In this document: positions 28,115 through 38,578 of the stretch, in pieces
How the letters are laid out: each line of letters begins with the position of its first letter
How positions within the stretch are numbered: the first letter of the stretch is position 1
Origin: a virus
Direction: 5' to 3' (one strand)
DNA length: 42,919 bases
IMG/VR virus record: IMGVR_UViG_3300047375_000029
Location: 1-42,919 of that record
The notes under the pieces: generated by a model
What the model saw: the letters and a program-made list of their open reading frames with translations, nothing else
Database searches by the model: none
Told to the model about the DNA's origin: nothing
Position numbers and translations under genes: made by a program

Positions 28115-29738
28115 ACGATTAAAGAATTTTAAAAATTTTTTGTATTTGTGTTGGAAGCACTTAAACCTGCCTAACCCTACACCTATACAATTCGATATTG
28201 CAGATTACTTACAGTCAAACGAAAAGAGACTTGTAATAGAAGCATTTAGAGGCGTAGGTAAATCTTGGATTACCTCTGCTTTTGTCTGTCATCAATTACT
28301 TCTTAATCCACAAAAAAATATTTTAGTAGTATCTGCTAGTAAAACTAGAGCAGATGACTTCAGTACCTTTACACAAAGGTTAATCGGAGAGATGCCACTA
28401 TTACAACACTTGATACCTAGAGATAATCAAAGACATTCTAAAGTATCATTTGATGTAGCACCTGCTACAGCCAGTCATGCACCATCAGTTAAATCTATGG
28501 GTATCACAGGGCAGTTAACAGGTAGTAGAGCAGACATTATCATTGCTGATGACGTTGAGAGTGCTAACAACTCCCAAACGCAGTTAATGAGAGATAGATT
28601 AGGTGAGACTGTAAAAGAATTTGATGCAATCATTAAACCTAATACTGGAAGAATTATATTTCTTGGTACTCCACAAAATGAGATGTCATTATACAACTCA
28701 TTAGAAGAGAGAGGATTTAAGACAAAGATATGGACTGCACTTGTACCTAACCAAACACAAAAGATTAGTTATGGTCACAAACTTGCAGACATTATTCAAG
28801 GTACAGAAGGAGACCCCACAGACCCCAAAAGGTTTGATGCGGTAGACTTAATGGAAAGACTATCTTCGTATGGTCGTTCTGGTTTTAACTTACAATTTAT
28901 GTTGGACACAAGTTTGTCTGATGCAAATAGATACCCTCTAAAGTTAAACGATTTGATTGTAGCTTCAGGTTGCTCTACATGGAAAGATGCACCTGCAAAG
29001 ATACAATGGGCATCATCACCAGAGCAAATGAAAGCTATAGACCCTGATATTCCCAATGTGGGACTTAAAGGTGATTATTTTGTAGCTCCTATGATGATGA
29101 GTGAAGAATTTACAGCATTCGAAGGCACAGTAATGTCCATTGACCCATCAGGTCGTGGAGAAGACAAAACAGCGTATGCGGTGCTTAAAATGCTTCATGG
29201 AGTGCTTTATCTGACCTCTGTAGGCTCACTGGAAGGTGGTTATTCAGAAACTACTATGGCAAGACTGTCTAACATTGCAAAGAAACATGATGTGAACTAT
29301 GTGGTCATTGAGAGTAACTTTGGTGATGGTATGGCAACACAGTTGTTAAAACCTGTCATGGCAAAGATACACCCATGTGAGATAGAAGAAGTTAGACATA
29401 ATACACAAAAAGAAAAGCGTATTATAGATACACTAGAGCCTTTGATGAATAGTCATAGGTTAGTTGTAGATGACTTACTAATACACGAAGATTTTAAAAA
29501 TGAACCAGACCATCAGTTGTTTAGACAAATGACAAGACTGACTAGAGACAAAGGTTCATTAAGACATGATGATGCTATTGATGCTTTAGCTATGGCGGCA
29601 AAGTATTGGGTAGACAGAATAGATAGAGACCAAACATTATCTTATAATCAACACAAAGAAGAATTGTTAGACCAAGAATTAGAAAGATTTATGGAAAACA
29701 ATATCGGAAGGACACAGAGTAAAGACAGATGGATATAA
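28101..29738 (+). CDS. Terminase large subunit, T7 gp19-like, 545 aa
   Basis: This is the packaging motor and nuclease. The Walker A motif EAFRGVGKSW (residues about 46-55) is nearly the T7 form, and the Walker B DIIIADDVES is at 144-153. The C-terminal RNase H-like nuclease shows MSIDPSGRGEDKTAYAV with the first catalytic Asp and LRHDDAIDALAMA with the last ones. Length is close to T7 gp19 (586 aa). Two adjacent ATGs at 28101 and 28104 are possible starts. It is followed with a 10-base overlap by the lysozyme gene, and then by the presumed genome end. Confidence 0.95.
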   Translation: MMMDKRLKNFKNFLYLCWKHLNLPNPTPIQFDIADYLQSNEKRLVIEAFRGVGKSWITSAFVCHQLLLNPQKNILVVSASKTRADDFSTFTQRLIGEMPLLQHLIPRDNQRHSKVSFDVAPATASHAPSVKSMGITGQLTGSRADIIIADDVESANNSQTQLMRDRLGETVKEFDAIIKPNTGRIIFLGTPQNEMSLYNSLEERGFKTKIWTALVPNQTQKISYGHKLADIIQGTEGDPTDPKRFDAVDLMERLSSYGRSGFNLQFMLDTSLSDANRYPLKLNDLIVASGCSTWKDAPAKIQWASSPEQMKAIDPDIPNVGLKGDYFVAPMMMSEEFTAFEGTVMSIDPSGRGEDKTAYAVLKMLHGVLYLTSVGSLEGGYSETTMARLSNIAKKHDVNYVVIESNFGDGMATQLLKPVMAKIHPCEIEEVRHNTQKEKRIIDTLEPLMNSHRLVVDDLLIHEDFKNEPDHQLFRQMTRLTRDKGSLRHDDAIDALAMAAKYWVDRIDRDQTLSYNQHKEELLDQELERFMENNIGRTQSKDRWI

Positions 29739-30151
29739 ACCAAACAAAAGAAGCCGTTAAAAAAGAAGAAGGCTATAGATTAGAAACATATCATTGTACA
29801 GAAGGACATCTTACAGGTGGCTATGGTCACAAGATGTTAAAAGGAGAGACAGCTCCTACAGACCACGCAGGTTGGTTAGTATTATTCGAAAGAGACTTTG
29901 CTAGAGCTGTAACTGGTGCTGATGATTTACTGATGTTATGTCCTGATATTAACGACAGTGCAAGGAACATTGTGGTTGAGATGGTGTACCAAATGGGTGC
30001 TTATGGGGTGTCCAAGTTTAAGGGTATGCTTAAAGCATTACAAGATGGGAACTATAAGACAGCCAGTGTGGAGATGCTAGATAGTAGATGGGCTAAACAA
30101 ACTCCTAATCGTGCTAATCGAATGGCAGAACGCATGGCGAATATTTCATAG
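29729..30151 (+). CDS. Endolysin, T4 lysozyme-like (GH24), 140 aa
   Basis: This is a peptidoglycan muramidase. The catalytic pattern Glu-8 residues-Cys-5 residues-Thr is present as Glu14, Cys23 and Thr29 (EEGYRLETYHCTEGHLTGGY). In T4 lysozyme the middle residue is Asp20, but phage members with Cys are known and T4 D20C is active. GYGHK and a C-terminal RWAKQTPNRANRMA fit the family. There is no signal peptide, so it would need the holin. With the gp3.5 homologue apparently inactive, this is probably the only wall-degrading enzyme. It overlaps terminase by 10 bases and is the last gene before the intergenic region. Confidence 0.92.
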   Translation: MDINQTKEAVKKEEGYRLETYHCTEGHLTGGYGHKMLKGETAPTDHAGWLVLFERDFARAVTGADDLLMLCPDINDSARNIVVEMVYQMGAYGVSKFKGMLKALQDGNYKTASVEMLDSRWAKQTPNRANRMAERMANIS

Positions 30152-34610: not shown

Positions 34611-37055
34611 ATGAAGATATTAGAAATAATGCCGACTTACCAAGACCAAGTACAAACCGAGAAGATGTCCGCCGAGCTTGGCATGAACAGGACAAATAAG
34701 AGGAGGCTCTCTCACATTGAACGTGAAGAAGAAAGCGTCACATCTTACGGAAAAGTTATTGTAGCAAATACAATACGTCCACTAGCAATAGCCATTGCTG
34801 AATGGGTTGAACAAGCGTTACCTGAAGTTCATTCTAAAACACCCATTGCTCTCAAATACATATCCCAAGTAGACCCAAAGATAACTGCGTTGATAACTGC
34901 TAAACATGTAATCAATACTATTACTAACACTAAAAATTTGACTGCCTGTGCCATCACTTTAGGTGGTCGTATTGAAACTGAAATTAGTCTTAAAAACTTT
35001 AAAGGACTAAACCCAGAGCTATACGAAACTGTTAAAAAAGATTTAGATAAAAGGTCTTGGAACTATAATTACAAAAGACGTAAGTTAAGAGAAAGTGCCA
35101 AGAGAGATGAAGTTATGAGGTGGGAAGAATGGACTACCACTGAAAGACTACATGTTGGAATGGAGCTTGTGTCTTTATTGATTGAGAGTACAGGTCTTGT
35201 TGAAATAGCTACTGAACAACACAAGCATAAAACTGTCAAAGTTATTAAACAAACGGCTAAAACTAAAGAATGGATAGATAATCGTAATAAGTTTAACGAA
35301 CTACTAAACCCAGAATACCTTTGCATGGTAATGCCTCCAAAATCAGTTATTGATGGGAAGGTAACAGGTCATGGGTATTGGACAAAAGAAATGCCTGAAT
35401 TAGACCTAGTTAAGCAAAAAGGTAAGAAATTTAACAAGGAAATGGAAAACTGTGCCATGCCTGAAGTTACATCTGCGGTTAATCTTATGCAAAGTACAGC
35501 ATATAAGATTAATCCATTTATTCTGTCAGTCATGCAAAATGCTTGGGACAAAGGACTATCTATTGGAGGTATGCCACCAATTAAGAACCTTGATTTACCC
35601 AACAAACCCCATGACATAGAGACTAACCCAGAGGCACTTAAAAAGTTTAAGAAAGATAGTGTTATCATTCACACAGAGAATAACCGAATGGTATCTAAAA
35701 GACTTCTATATGCTAAAATTATATGGTTGGCAGAGAAGTTCAAAGACTATGCTACATTGTATTTTCCATTACAATTAGACTTTAGAGGTAGAGCTTATTG
35801 TGTACCTGCTTTTCTTAACTATCAGTCTATCAATGGTGCAAAAGCATTGCTTAATTTTAGTCAAGGTAAAGCTATCACTAAAGAGAACAGAGGTGTCTTT
35901 TGGTTAGCTGTACATGGTTCTAATATGTGGGGTAATGATAAGGTATCATTTGAGGACAGAGAGAAATGGTCTCACGATAACTTACAATGGATAACTGATT
36001 GTGCTGAAGACCCTATTGCTAATAGACAATGGGAAGACGCAGATAATCCTTTTCAATTTCTAGCATTTTGTGATGAGTGGAAAAGATACCAAGAAACAGG
36101 TGATGGGTTTATCTCTCATATACCTGTCAATGTAGATGGCAGTTGTAATGGATTACAAATCTATTCATTGTTATTGAAAGATAAAGTTGCAGGTAAGCTA
36201 GTTAATTGTTTGCCTAGTGAGATACCACAAGACATCTACCAATTAGTAGCTAACGAAGTAATTAAAACTTTGAAAGTGAAAGCTAGTGAGGGAGACCCAT
36301 TGGCACAGAAATGGTTAGACTATGGTGTTAAGCGTTCAACTTGTAAAAGACCTATTATGACAATCTGTTATGGGTCAACTAGATATTCTTGTACTGACTT
36401 TGTAGTAGAAGATTTAACTAAAAGAAAAGACAAAGGAGAAATGCACCCATTTGATGACATGTTTAAACCTGCAACATATCTGTCTAAAATTATTTGGGCA
36501 AGTATTGGTGAGAACTTAAAATCTGCTAGGGTTGGTATGGATTACTTACAAAACAATGCAAAGGTAATTGCAAAAGAAGGAATACCTATTCACTGGGTTA
36601 CACCTGTAGGCTTTCCTGTGTTTCAATACTATCCTGAAATGAAAAGCAAAAGAGTACGTTCTCATTTAATGGGAGAGGTGTTTGCACCGCAGATAAAAGA
36701 GGAGACAAAAGAAACGGACAAACTTCGAAGCCGTAACGCAGTCGCCGCCAATTATGTTCATAGTTTAGATTCCGCTTGTATGATTAAAACTGTCAATATT
36801 GCAAAAGCAAAAGGTATTGATAATTTTTGTAATGTGCATGATAGCTTTGCAACACATGCGTGTGACATTGATAAGCTAAATGTATCTATCAGAGAAGCCT
36901 TTGTAGAAACCTTTAGCAAAGACTTGTTAGGTACTTTTAAGGTAGATGTAGGAAGATTGTTAGATGATGAGACTAGAGGCAAACTACCTACAATCCCTGA
37001 AAGTGGAGATTTGGAGTTAGATTTACTGTATCAATCCAAGTTTTTCTTTGCCTAA
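34611..37055 (+). CDS. Single-subunit phage RNA polymerase, T7 gp1-like, 814 aa
   Basis: This polymerase transcribes the replication and virion genes from the phage promoter family. The central fold begins at YFPLQLDFRGRAYCVPAFLN (T7 FPYNMDWRGRVY). Motif A is VDGSCNGLQ with the first catalytic Asp (T7 D537). Motif B is KRSTCKRPIMTICYG with the Lys and Tyr of T7 K631/Y639. Motif C is VHDSFATH with the second Asp (T7 D812). The C-terminus ends FFFA, like the FAFA foot of T7. It is shorter than T7 (883 aa). The ATG at 34611 with TGGAG 5 bases upstream is chosen; the frame is open further 5' across the attP core, but those codons have no good start. The leader contains shared motif copy 4. Confidence 0.97.
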   Translation: MKILEIMPTYQDQVQTEKMSAELGMNRTNKRRLSHIEREEESVTSYGKVIVANTIRPLAIAIAEWVEQALPEVHSKTPIALKYISQVDPKITALITAKHVINTITNTKNLTACAITLGGRIETEISLKNFKGLNPELYETVKKDLDKRSWNYNYKRRKLRESAKRDEVMRWEEWTTTERLHVGMELVSLLIESTGLVEIATEQHKHKTVKVIKQTAKTKEWIDNRNKFNELLNPEYLCMVMPPKSVIDGKVTGHGYWTKEMPELDLVKQKGKKFNKEMENCAMPEVTSAVNLMQSTAYKINPFILSVMQNAWDKGLSIGGMPPIKNLDLPNKPHDIETNPEALKKFKKDSVIIHTENNRMVSKRLLYAKIIWLAEKFKDYATLYFPLQLDFRGRAYCVPAFLNYQSINGAKALLNFSQGKAITKENRGVFWLAVHGSNMWGNDKVSFEDREKWSHDNLQWITDCAEDPIANRQWEDADNPFQFLAFCDEWKRYQETGDGFISHIPVNVDGSCNGLQIYSLLLKDKVAGKLVNCLPSEIPQDIYQLVANEVIKTLKVKASEGDPLAQKWLDYGVKRSTCKRPIMTICYGSTRYSCTDFVVEDLTKRKDKGEMHPFDDMFKPATYLSKIIWASIGENLKSARVGMDYLQNNAKVIAKEGIPIHWVTPVGFPVFQYYPEMKSKRVRSHLMGEVFAPQIKEETKETDKLRSRNAVAANYVHSLDSACMIKTVNIAKAKGIDNFCNVHDSFATHACDIDKLNVSIREAFVETFSKDLLGTFKVDVGRLLDDETRGKLPTIPESGDLELDLLYQSKFFFA

Positions 37056-37145: not shown

Positions 37146-37769
37146 ATGAGTAAACAAACATATAACAAGATTGTAACACCTGTAGGTGTATCACAATATT
37201 GTTGGTTAAATACGCCAGATACTAAATTTGATAAAGAGAATGGTGGTCACTTTAAGACTAACCTAATTATCAAAGGGTCTGACGCACAATCACTCATTAA
37301 ATCTGTTAATGATGAGATGAAAGTATCTTTAGAAATGGCAAAAGAAAAGTCTAAAGGTAAACCCCCAAAAACAGCAAACATGCCTTTTGAAGAAGAGTAT
37401 GTAGAAGGTAAACCAACTGGAAACATAATCTTTAAATTCAAAGCTAAAGCAAAAATTATGATGAAGTCTGGTGACGTAATAGACATCAAGATACCAATTT
37501 TTGATAGCAAAGGAACACCTATGAAAGAGCAAGTATGGTCAGGTTCAGAAATGAAAGTTTCTGCTGACATGATACCTTACTACACCGCAATGGCGGGAGC
37601 AGGTGTTTCATTGAGATTAAAGGCAGTGCAGATAACTAAATTAGTTGAAGGCGGAGCAGGTGCAGGAGCAAAAGGGCATGGCTTTGAAGAAATTAAAGAT
37701 GGTTATGTTGCACCAGAAGTCGATAAAACATTTGAGAATGAAGTACAGCCGAGCAACACTGACTTCTAA
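37146..37769 (+). CDS. Single-stranded DNA-binding protein, T7 gp2.5-like, 207 aa
   Basis: This protein coats ssDNA during replication and recombination. Place (after RNA polymerase, before endonuclease I), size (T7 gp2.5 is 232 aa) and the beta-rich core (GNIIFKFKAKAKIMMKSGDV, VSLRLKAVQITKLVE) fit the gp2.5 family. After a Gly/Ala-rich linker (GGAGAGAKGHG) comes an acidic C-terminus ending NTDF. The terminal Phe is as in T7, where it contacts polymerase and primase. An AAGGAAAAC ribosome binding site precedes the ATG. Confidence 0.88.
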   Translation: MSKQTYNKIVTPVGVSQYCWLNTPDTKFDKENGGHFKTNLIIKGSDAQSLIKSVNDEMKVSLEMAKEKSKGKPPKTANMPFEEEYVEGKPTGNIIFKFKAKAKIMMKSGDVIDIKIPIFDSKGTPMKEQVWSGSEMKVSADMIPYYTAMAGAGVSLRLKAVQITKLVEGGAGAGAKGHGFEEIKDGYVAPEVDKTFENEVQPSNTDF

Positions 37770-38154
37770 TCAAGTAGGACTTAAATATGGTTTTAGGTCT
37801 GGGCTAGAAATAGCTATCTCACAAGAGTTAGACGCTAATAGTGTAAAGTATGATTATGAGAAGGTTAAATTAACTTATGTTAAACCACAGAAAGCTCATT
37901 CTTATACCCCAGACTTTTACCTTAAAGAACAAAACATTTTTATAGAAACAAAAGGATTGTTTACATCAGCAGACAGACAGAAAATGCGTCTTGTCAAAGA
38001 ACAACACCCAGAGAAAGACATTAGATTTGTCTTTAGTAATTCACGAAGCAGAATATCAAAAAAATCTTCAACGACTTACGCTATGTGGTGTGAGAAGTAT
38101 GGTTTTAAATATGCTGACAAACATATCCCATTGGAGTGGTTAAATGGACAATAA
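37738..38154 (+). CDS. Endonuclease I (Holliday junction resolvase), T7 gp3-like, 138 aa
   Basis: This is a junction-resolving nuclease that trims replication intermediates and breaks host DNA. Catalytic residues match T7: Glu24 in FRSGLE, Asp59 in YTPDF, Glu70 and Lys72 in IETKGL. The segments LVKEQHPEKDIRFVFSNSRS and CEKYGFKYADKHIPLEWL are also close to T7 gp3 (149 aa). The start at 37738 gives the family's usual N-terminal length; an upstream start would add about 30 residues lying wholly in the SSB gene. It overlaps SSB by 32 bases and the next gene by 11. Confidence 0.93.
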   Translation: MKYSRATLTSNQVGLKYGFRSGLEIAISQELDANSVKYDYEKVKLTYVKPQKAHSYTPDFYLKEQNIFIETKGLFTSADRQKMRLVKEQHPEKDIRFVFSNSRSRISKKSSTTYAMWCEKYGFKYADKHIPLEWLNGQ

Positions 38155-38578
38155 TTATAGAACAAGAACTGATTATATTGTTGTTCATTCAACTAAAACT
38201 AAATCTAATCAAGACTTAAATGCAAAGGATATAACTTTGCTACACAGGAAAGAAGGTTTCTTTCATAACGCTTTTCATTTTATAATTAAAAGAGATGGTA
38301 CAATAGAAGAAGGAAGACCAGAAGATATGTCTGGTGCAATATTACCTATAAACCAACCTTTAATTACTAACCAAAATTCCATAGCGATAGCTTTAGTCGG
38401 CGGATTAGCTGATGATGGAAAAAGTCTCGACACTAACTTCACATACCTACAATACGCATCTTTGCGTGAACTTGTAAAAAGGTTGAAAAAGAAGTACAAA
38501 GTTGAGGTAGTGGGTTGCAGAAATGCAATTAACTCTAAATCGTGTATGTCTTTTGACGTACTGTCGATTGTTGATTGA
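38144..38578 (+). CDS. T7 lysozyme (gp3.5)-like amidase homologue, probably inactive, 144 aa
   Basis: The fold is clearly that of T7 gp3.5: YIVVHSTKT at 11-19, FHFIIKRDGTIEEGRPED at 44-61, NSIAIALVGGLADDGK and a C-terminal KSCMSFD. In T7 this N-acetylmuramoyl-L-alanine amidase has zinc ligands H17, H122 and C130 and catalytic Y46 and K128. Here His15, Lys132 and Cys134 remain, but the H122 position is Arg126 and the Y46 position is Phe44; no other His is near the C-terminus. Amidase activity is thus probably lost, while the second gp3.5 function, binding and restraining the phage RNA polymerase, may persist. Place between endonuclease I and primase-helicase is as in T7. Confidence 0.88.
   Translation: MDNNYRTRTDYIVVHSTKTKSNQDLNAKDITLLHRKEGFFHNAFHFIIKRDGTIEEGRPEDMSGAILPINQPLITNQNSIAIALVGGLADDGKSLDTNFTYLQYASLRELVKRLKKKYKVEVVGCRNAINSKSCMSFDVLSIVD

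Follow-up and report, generated by a model that had tools for sequence, protein, structure and literature searches.

SAR11 phage genomes suggest the loss of one of two functions in a T7-lysozyme-type protein

Abundant ocean phages appear to have separated in nature, through several active-site changes within one clade, the two jobs of T7 lysozyme (gp3.5), namely its amidase activity and its control of the phage RNA polymerase. This lysozyme is the textbook case of a dual-function protein; as far as we know, only engineered mutations have separated the two functions so far. The analysis started from a viral DNA of 42,919 nucleotides (IMG/VR record IMGVR_UViG_3300047375_000029), referred to as the window. 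This DNA comes from an HTVC019P-type pelagiphage (Autographiviridae, Pelagivirus); over the aligned parts only, its RNA polymerase region is 91-93% identical to those of HTVC019P and Ran EXVC014P. Computation identified in this clade a gp3.5 homologue with a conserved fold and a clade-wide altered active site, which is under purifying selection and is accompanied by a separate lysozyme.

The reading we favor, although we give it only about an even chance as a whole, is that the gp3.5 of the window has lost or nearly lost amidase activity, that a dedicated lysozyme takes care of lysis and that the protein acts on the phage RNA polymerase. Under this scheme, lysis would have been taken over by the lysozyme encoded next to the terminase gene. 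The gp3.5 protein, keeping its fold and its place in the gene order, would act inside the cell, where it would bind the phage's own RNA polymerase and damp or pause late transcription. His15, Cys125 and Cys134 might still coordinate a zinc ion in a structural role. These phages offer a ready protein set for asking whether control of the polymerase is enough for gp3.5 to be retained in genomes.

Identification of the gp3.5 homologue

The gene is a genuine gp3.5 (T7 lysozyme) homologue. The encoded protein matched Pfam Amidase_2 (E 3.6e-12) and phrog_822 (E 9.3e-47), with homology spanning the whole domain, and a search of PDB sequences retrieved T7 lysozyme (1ARO/1LBA, about 5e-24). Its AlphaFold2 model (pLDDT 87.6) superposed on T7 lysozyme 1LBA with a Z-score of 20.7 and 1.5 Å over 135 residues. 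The two proteins thus share a fold over nearly their full length, with 38% identity in the structural alignment, in agreement with the original prediction that the T7 fold is kept. The gene neighbors are also alike: T7-type RNA polymerase, ssDNA-binding protein (gene 2.5), endonuclease I (gene 3), gp3.5 and primase follow one another in the same order as in T7. His17, Lys128 and Cys130 of T7 are retained, whereas His122 is changed to Cys, Tyr46 to Phe and His68 to Ile. The protein of the window further differs by a new loop (residues 66-75), an N-terminal tail three residues shorter and a shorter C-terminal end. The reading frame contains no other ATG, GTG or TTG start, which rules out a longer N-terminal tail from an upstream start.

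Table 1. Features of the window discussed in the text, with their coordinates and the basis of each assignment.
Feature	Position	Strand	Basis
GH24 lysozyme adjoining the terminase gene, motif E14-x8-C23-x5-T29 intact	29729..30151	+	Pfam, motif check
Phage RNA polymerase, presumed gp3.5 partner	34611..37055	+	Pfam/PHROGs
Gene 3 endonuclease I; 11-base overlap with gp3.5 start	37738..38154	+	start by analogy with HTVC019P
gp3.5 (T7 lysozyme) homologue, 144 aa	38144..38578	+	ORF, Pfam, PHROGs, PDB sequence search, fold
Short tail MDNNY at the N-terminus, ahead of Arg6 (8 residues precede the corresponding Arg in T7); first codons overlap gene 3 end	38144..38158	+	alignment
His15 (T7 zinc ligand His17)	38186..38188	+	47/47 distinct clade genes
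Phe44 (catalytic T7 Tyr46)	38273..38275	+	Tyr in 3/47 clade members
Loop ILPINQPLIT (66-75), invariant and clade-specific, replacing T7 HAKG; Ile66 for cleft His68	38339..38368	+	clade alignment
Cys125 (position of T7 zinc ligand His122)	38516..38518	+	profile alignments, models; 47/47 clade genes
Arg126 (R of the GHR motif, one residue past the zinc-ligand position)	38519..38521	+	profile alignment; invariant in 47 clade genes
Lys132 (T7 Lys128)	38537..38539	+	clade: Lys 40, Asn 6, Ile 1
Cys134 (T7 zinc ligand Cys130)	38543..38545	+	Cys in 46/47 clade genes

Active site and zinc ligands

Residue names follow the numbering of the T7 literature, in which the intact set consists of His17, Tyr46, His122, Lys128 and Cys130. 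Alignment confirmed four of the originally proposed correspondences: Tyr46 with Phe44, and retention of His15, Lys132 (Lys128) and Cys134 (Cys130). The fifth, which equated His122 with Arg126, had to be revised. Two independent profile alignments, one with 27 sister sequences and one with 7 intact homologues, gave the same register, with Cys125 on the column of the zinc-binding His and Arg126 on the next one. The sister phages HTVC142P, HTVC168P and Eistla carry EIVGHRDV or EVVGHRDV followed by SC, and the protein of the window carries EVVGCRNA...SC, so that GHRD in the sisters corresponds to GCRN here. The profile alignment and the sister sequences therefore rule out Arg126 as the replacement of His122. 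A gapless alignment to T7, apparently the basis of the earlier assignment, hides a one-residue shift ahead of the last strand.

The spacing between the ligand His and Cys130 ranges from 8 to 10 in intact homologues (8 in T7, 9 in ICP3 and 10 in RHEph21); the value of 9 for Cys125 and Cys134 is therefore ordinary. In AlphaFold models, the strand stops just before His122 (ORF residue 123) in a T7-type protein and just before Cys125 in the protein of the window. Since Cys125 is found in all 47 distinct clade genes, its presence is not due to chance.

Thus, two of the three T7-type zinc ligands are present (His15 and Cys134), with Cys125 at the position of His122, and one of the two T7-type catalytic residues, Lys132, is retained, Phe44 replacing Tyr46. 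The description of the protein as being without zinc is not established, because a site made of His15, Cys125 and Cys134, all conserved, may persist, perhaps in a structural role; what is observed is a change of ligand from His to Cys. This conservation speaks against our preferred reading, as it fits some zinc-dependent role.

Cysteine is a common zinc ligand, and catalytic zinc sites of the His-Cys-Cys type exist in other enzymes. The protein could still be a zinc amidase with a re-tuned site, which would cut peptidoglycan, if perhaps at a low rate or in the wall of its own host; conservation of His15, Cys125 and Cys134 and of Lys132 in most members would agree with this. We consider it unlikely, however, because Tyr46 is Phe in nearly all members, Ile replaces His68, Met or Ile replaces Pro131, and other ligands are lost in sister lineages. 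Moreover, Tyr-to-Phe changes cripple relatives: Ts2631 Tyr58Phe is left with 10% of its activity (PMC4573324). For T7 lysozyme itself, the same article describes a considerable drop in activity for Lys128Thr.

Distribution of the active-site changes

The intact set was then scored over 144 non-redundant homologues, on a tree whose alignment omitted columns 46, 122, 128 and 130. All 91 homologues outside the clade carried the full T7 set, and none of the 53 inside did. A single branch of the tree, with a support of 100, separated intact from altered sequences. A second sampling, by a DNA pattern located outside the active site and avoiding the catalytic residues, agreed with the tree survey except for a few unscorable fragments and remote sequences. 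Since every intact outside homologue has the full set and no clade member does, the predicted loss of amidase is well supported as either loss or strong impairment. Judged from sequence, amidase impairment in the gp3.5 of the window is likely; we infer a loss of catalysis from these changes. The database names "lysozyme" and "amidase" given to these genes probably misstate the activity of their products. In a literature search that covered few subscription journals, no paper on amidase-defective gp3.5 in pelagiphages was found.

Sublineages of the clade alter different residues: His122 is replaced by Cys, Tyr or Arg, Cys130 by Ser or Ala, and Lys128 by various residues including Ser, Thr and Val. 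In the HTVC019P group, position 122 is Cys and position 46 mostly Phe. The zinc triad is intact in one sister group that has no Lys128, and a further group carries Ser or Ala at 130; HTVC109P combines Tyr at 122 with Ser at 130, and one further sequence (L290) has Arg at 122. In two members (L282 and L321), Tyr46 and the zinc triad are both present and residue 128 is Thr, the residue found there in amidase PGRPs; judging from these residues, some members of the clade may have retained activity. Where Cys130 has become Ser in a sister group (L113-L155 and related, motif LSPHF), a His located two residues downstream could in principle be an alternative third ligand.

Remodelled cleft

A further change, overlooked in the original prediction, concerns His68 of the T7 cleft, which is Ile66 in the protein of the window. 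His68 is retained in 89 of 91 intact sequences and in all 37 sister sequences, and is Ile in the whole HTVC019P group (16/16). Non-catalytic animal peptidoglycan recognition proteins (PGRPs) bind peptidoglycan fragments without cutting them. The protein might likewise bind such fragments, or another ligand, in its remodelled cleft without cutting and without acting on RNA polymerase. It shares the fold of the PGRPs and has acquired an invariant new loop where intact homologues carry His68, and sister groups repeat the Cys-to-Ser changes seen in non-amidase PGRPs (PMC4573324). Nevertheless, the loss of the cleft His68, the lack of an evident export signal in the sequence and the location of the gene among DNA-metabolism genes, just after the RNA polymerase, make this explanation improbable. 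The likeness to non-catalytic PGRPs (PGRP-SA and others) is also partial. They have the same fold and have lost a zinc ligand, by the Cys-to-Ser change seen in pelagiphage sister groups, and they act on extracellular peptidoglycan. The clade of the window, in contrast, changes the His ligand and keeps Cys134 (46/47); the PGRP-like pattern of a zinc-site Cys changed to Ser in an otherwise preserved cleft is not found here, as His68 is Ile.

In a bolder version of the amidase loss, the cleft of the HTVC019P clade would have been rebuilt rather than merely lost. The His-Cys-Cys zinc site and loop 66-75 would make the protein an amidase-dead regulator of RNA polymerase dependent on zinc or on a ligand, with lysis moved to the separate lysozyme. 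We regard this as rather unlikely, if somewhat less so than the two preceding explanations.

Separate lysozyme

The predicted separate GH24 lysozyme is indeed present in the window (Table 1), and a separate lysozyme is general among the pelagiviruses inspected. Proteins with an intact GH24 E-x8-C-x5-T motif are generally active. Of 18 pelagivirus records, 10 matched PF00959, and the 11 records with an intact gp3.5 gave no match; this is a trend rather than a census, some records being fragments. Several pelagiviruses with no PF00959 match have a divergent GH24 or a pesticin-type lysozyme at the same place. The terminase-side lysozyme varies in type (the window gene; L081:2339-2914; L132:1810-2424; L242:6784-7290): a soluble GH24, a GH24 bearing a hydrophobic segment at its N-terminus, or a pesticin-type enzyme. 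The Roseobacter phage CRP-125 has an intact gp3.5 together with another annotated cell wall hydrolase. A second hydrolase by itself therefore does not lead to decay of gp3.5.

Selection and possible function

The gp3.5 genes of the clade are under purifying selection, with a median dN/dS of 0.18 among 47 distinct genes and 78 of 144 positions invariant. That the gene is a decaying, functionless relic is thus very improbable, even though several catalytic residues have been lost in parallel and HTVC120P relatives have no gp3.5; the truncated Votkovvirus version itself has a dN/dS of about 0.165.

Control of RNA polymerase is the obvious candidate role, because the amidase is not needed for inhibition. 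T7 lysozyme Lys128Tyr has no amidase activity and inhibits the polymerase fully (PMC5732464), and inhibition is kept by Tyr46Phe and Lys128Thr (PMC4573324). The Lys128Tyr form, used in expression strains, is an engineered version of the separation proposed here (PMC5732464). It results from one engineered change, whereas the changes in the clade of the window are natural, clade-wide and located at other residues, and inhibition by these proteins is a prediction.

Inhibition by T7-type lysozymes depends on the N-terminal tail (PMC10138996); no contact residues are given in PMC5445346. Weighing against such a role, the tail of the window protein has 5 residues, compared with 8 in T7, and no Arg at position 3. 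This tail is conserved within the clade, and the partner polymerase differs as well. It is plausible that gp3.5 is retained as a regulator of the phage RNA polymerase, with odds slightly in its favor, and we infer polymerase binding less firmly than the loss of catalysis. The originally proposed "clean split" of the two functions is too strong for this protein, because its regulatory role is indirectly deduced, its tail is shorter and some polymerase-bearing relatives have no gp3.5.

Truncation and absence of gp3.5 in related pelagiphages

HTVC120P-type pelagiphages have a related RNA polymerase (about 46% identity) and no gp3.5, with about 110 bases between endonuclease and primase; control by gp3.5 is thus dispensable in these relatives, which also weighs against the regulator role. 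The gaps lie at L349:7925-8035, L350:8549-8659 and L351:8549-8659, and Amidase_2 and GH24 gave no match in these three whole records.

In the Votkovvirus phages HTVC119P, HTVC200P and S28C10, which are SAR11-type and bear an RNA polymerase, gp3.5 occupies the same gene position as in the window. Unlike the window protein, it has Asp for His17 and has lost the C-terminal region with His122, Lys128 and Cys130. Its dN/dS was obtained from one pair. A GH24 lysozyme is located elsewhere in the genome (two records). These forms lend support to the general idea and illustrate the originally proposed split better than the protein of the window does, and truncation here, with absence in the HTVC120P type, adds to the changes seen within the clade.

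The Votkovvirus genes (L352:7713-8057, L353:7553-7894 and L358 around 2450-2785) are annotated as lysozyme in two cases and amidase in one. In two of them, the gp3.5 homology already starts ahead of the annotated ATG (L352:7515-7764, L353:7355-7604), where the frame stays open through the end of gene 3; translation may begin at a TTG or ATT codon or continue from gene 3. Finally, the annotation of Chosvirus KT997847 (L158:6600-9222) divides the RNA polymerase into two adjacent ORFs, owing to a frameshift, to an error in sequencing or to a gene that is truly split.
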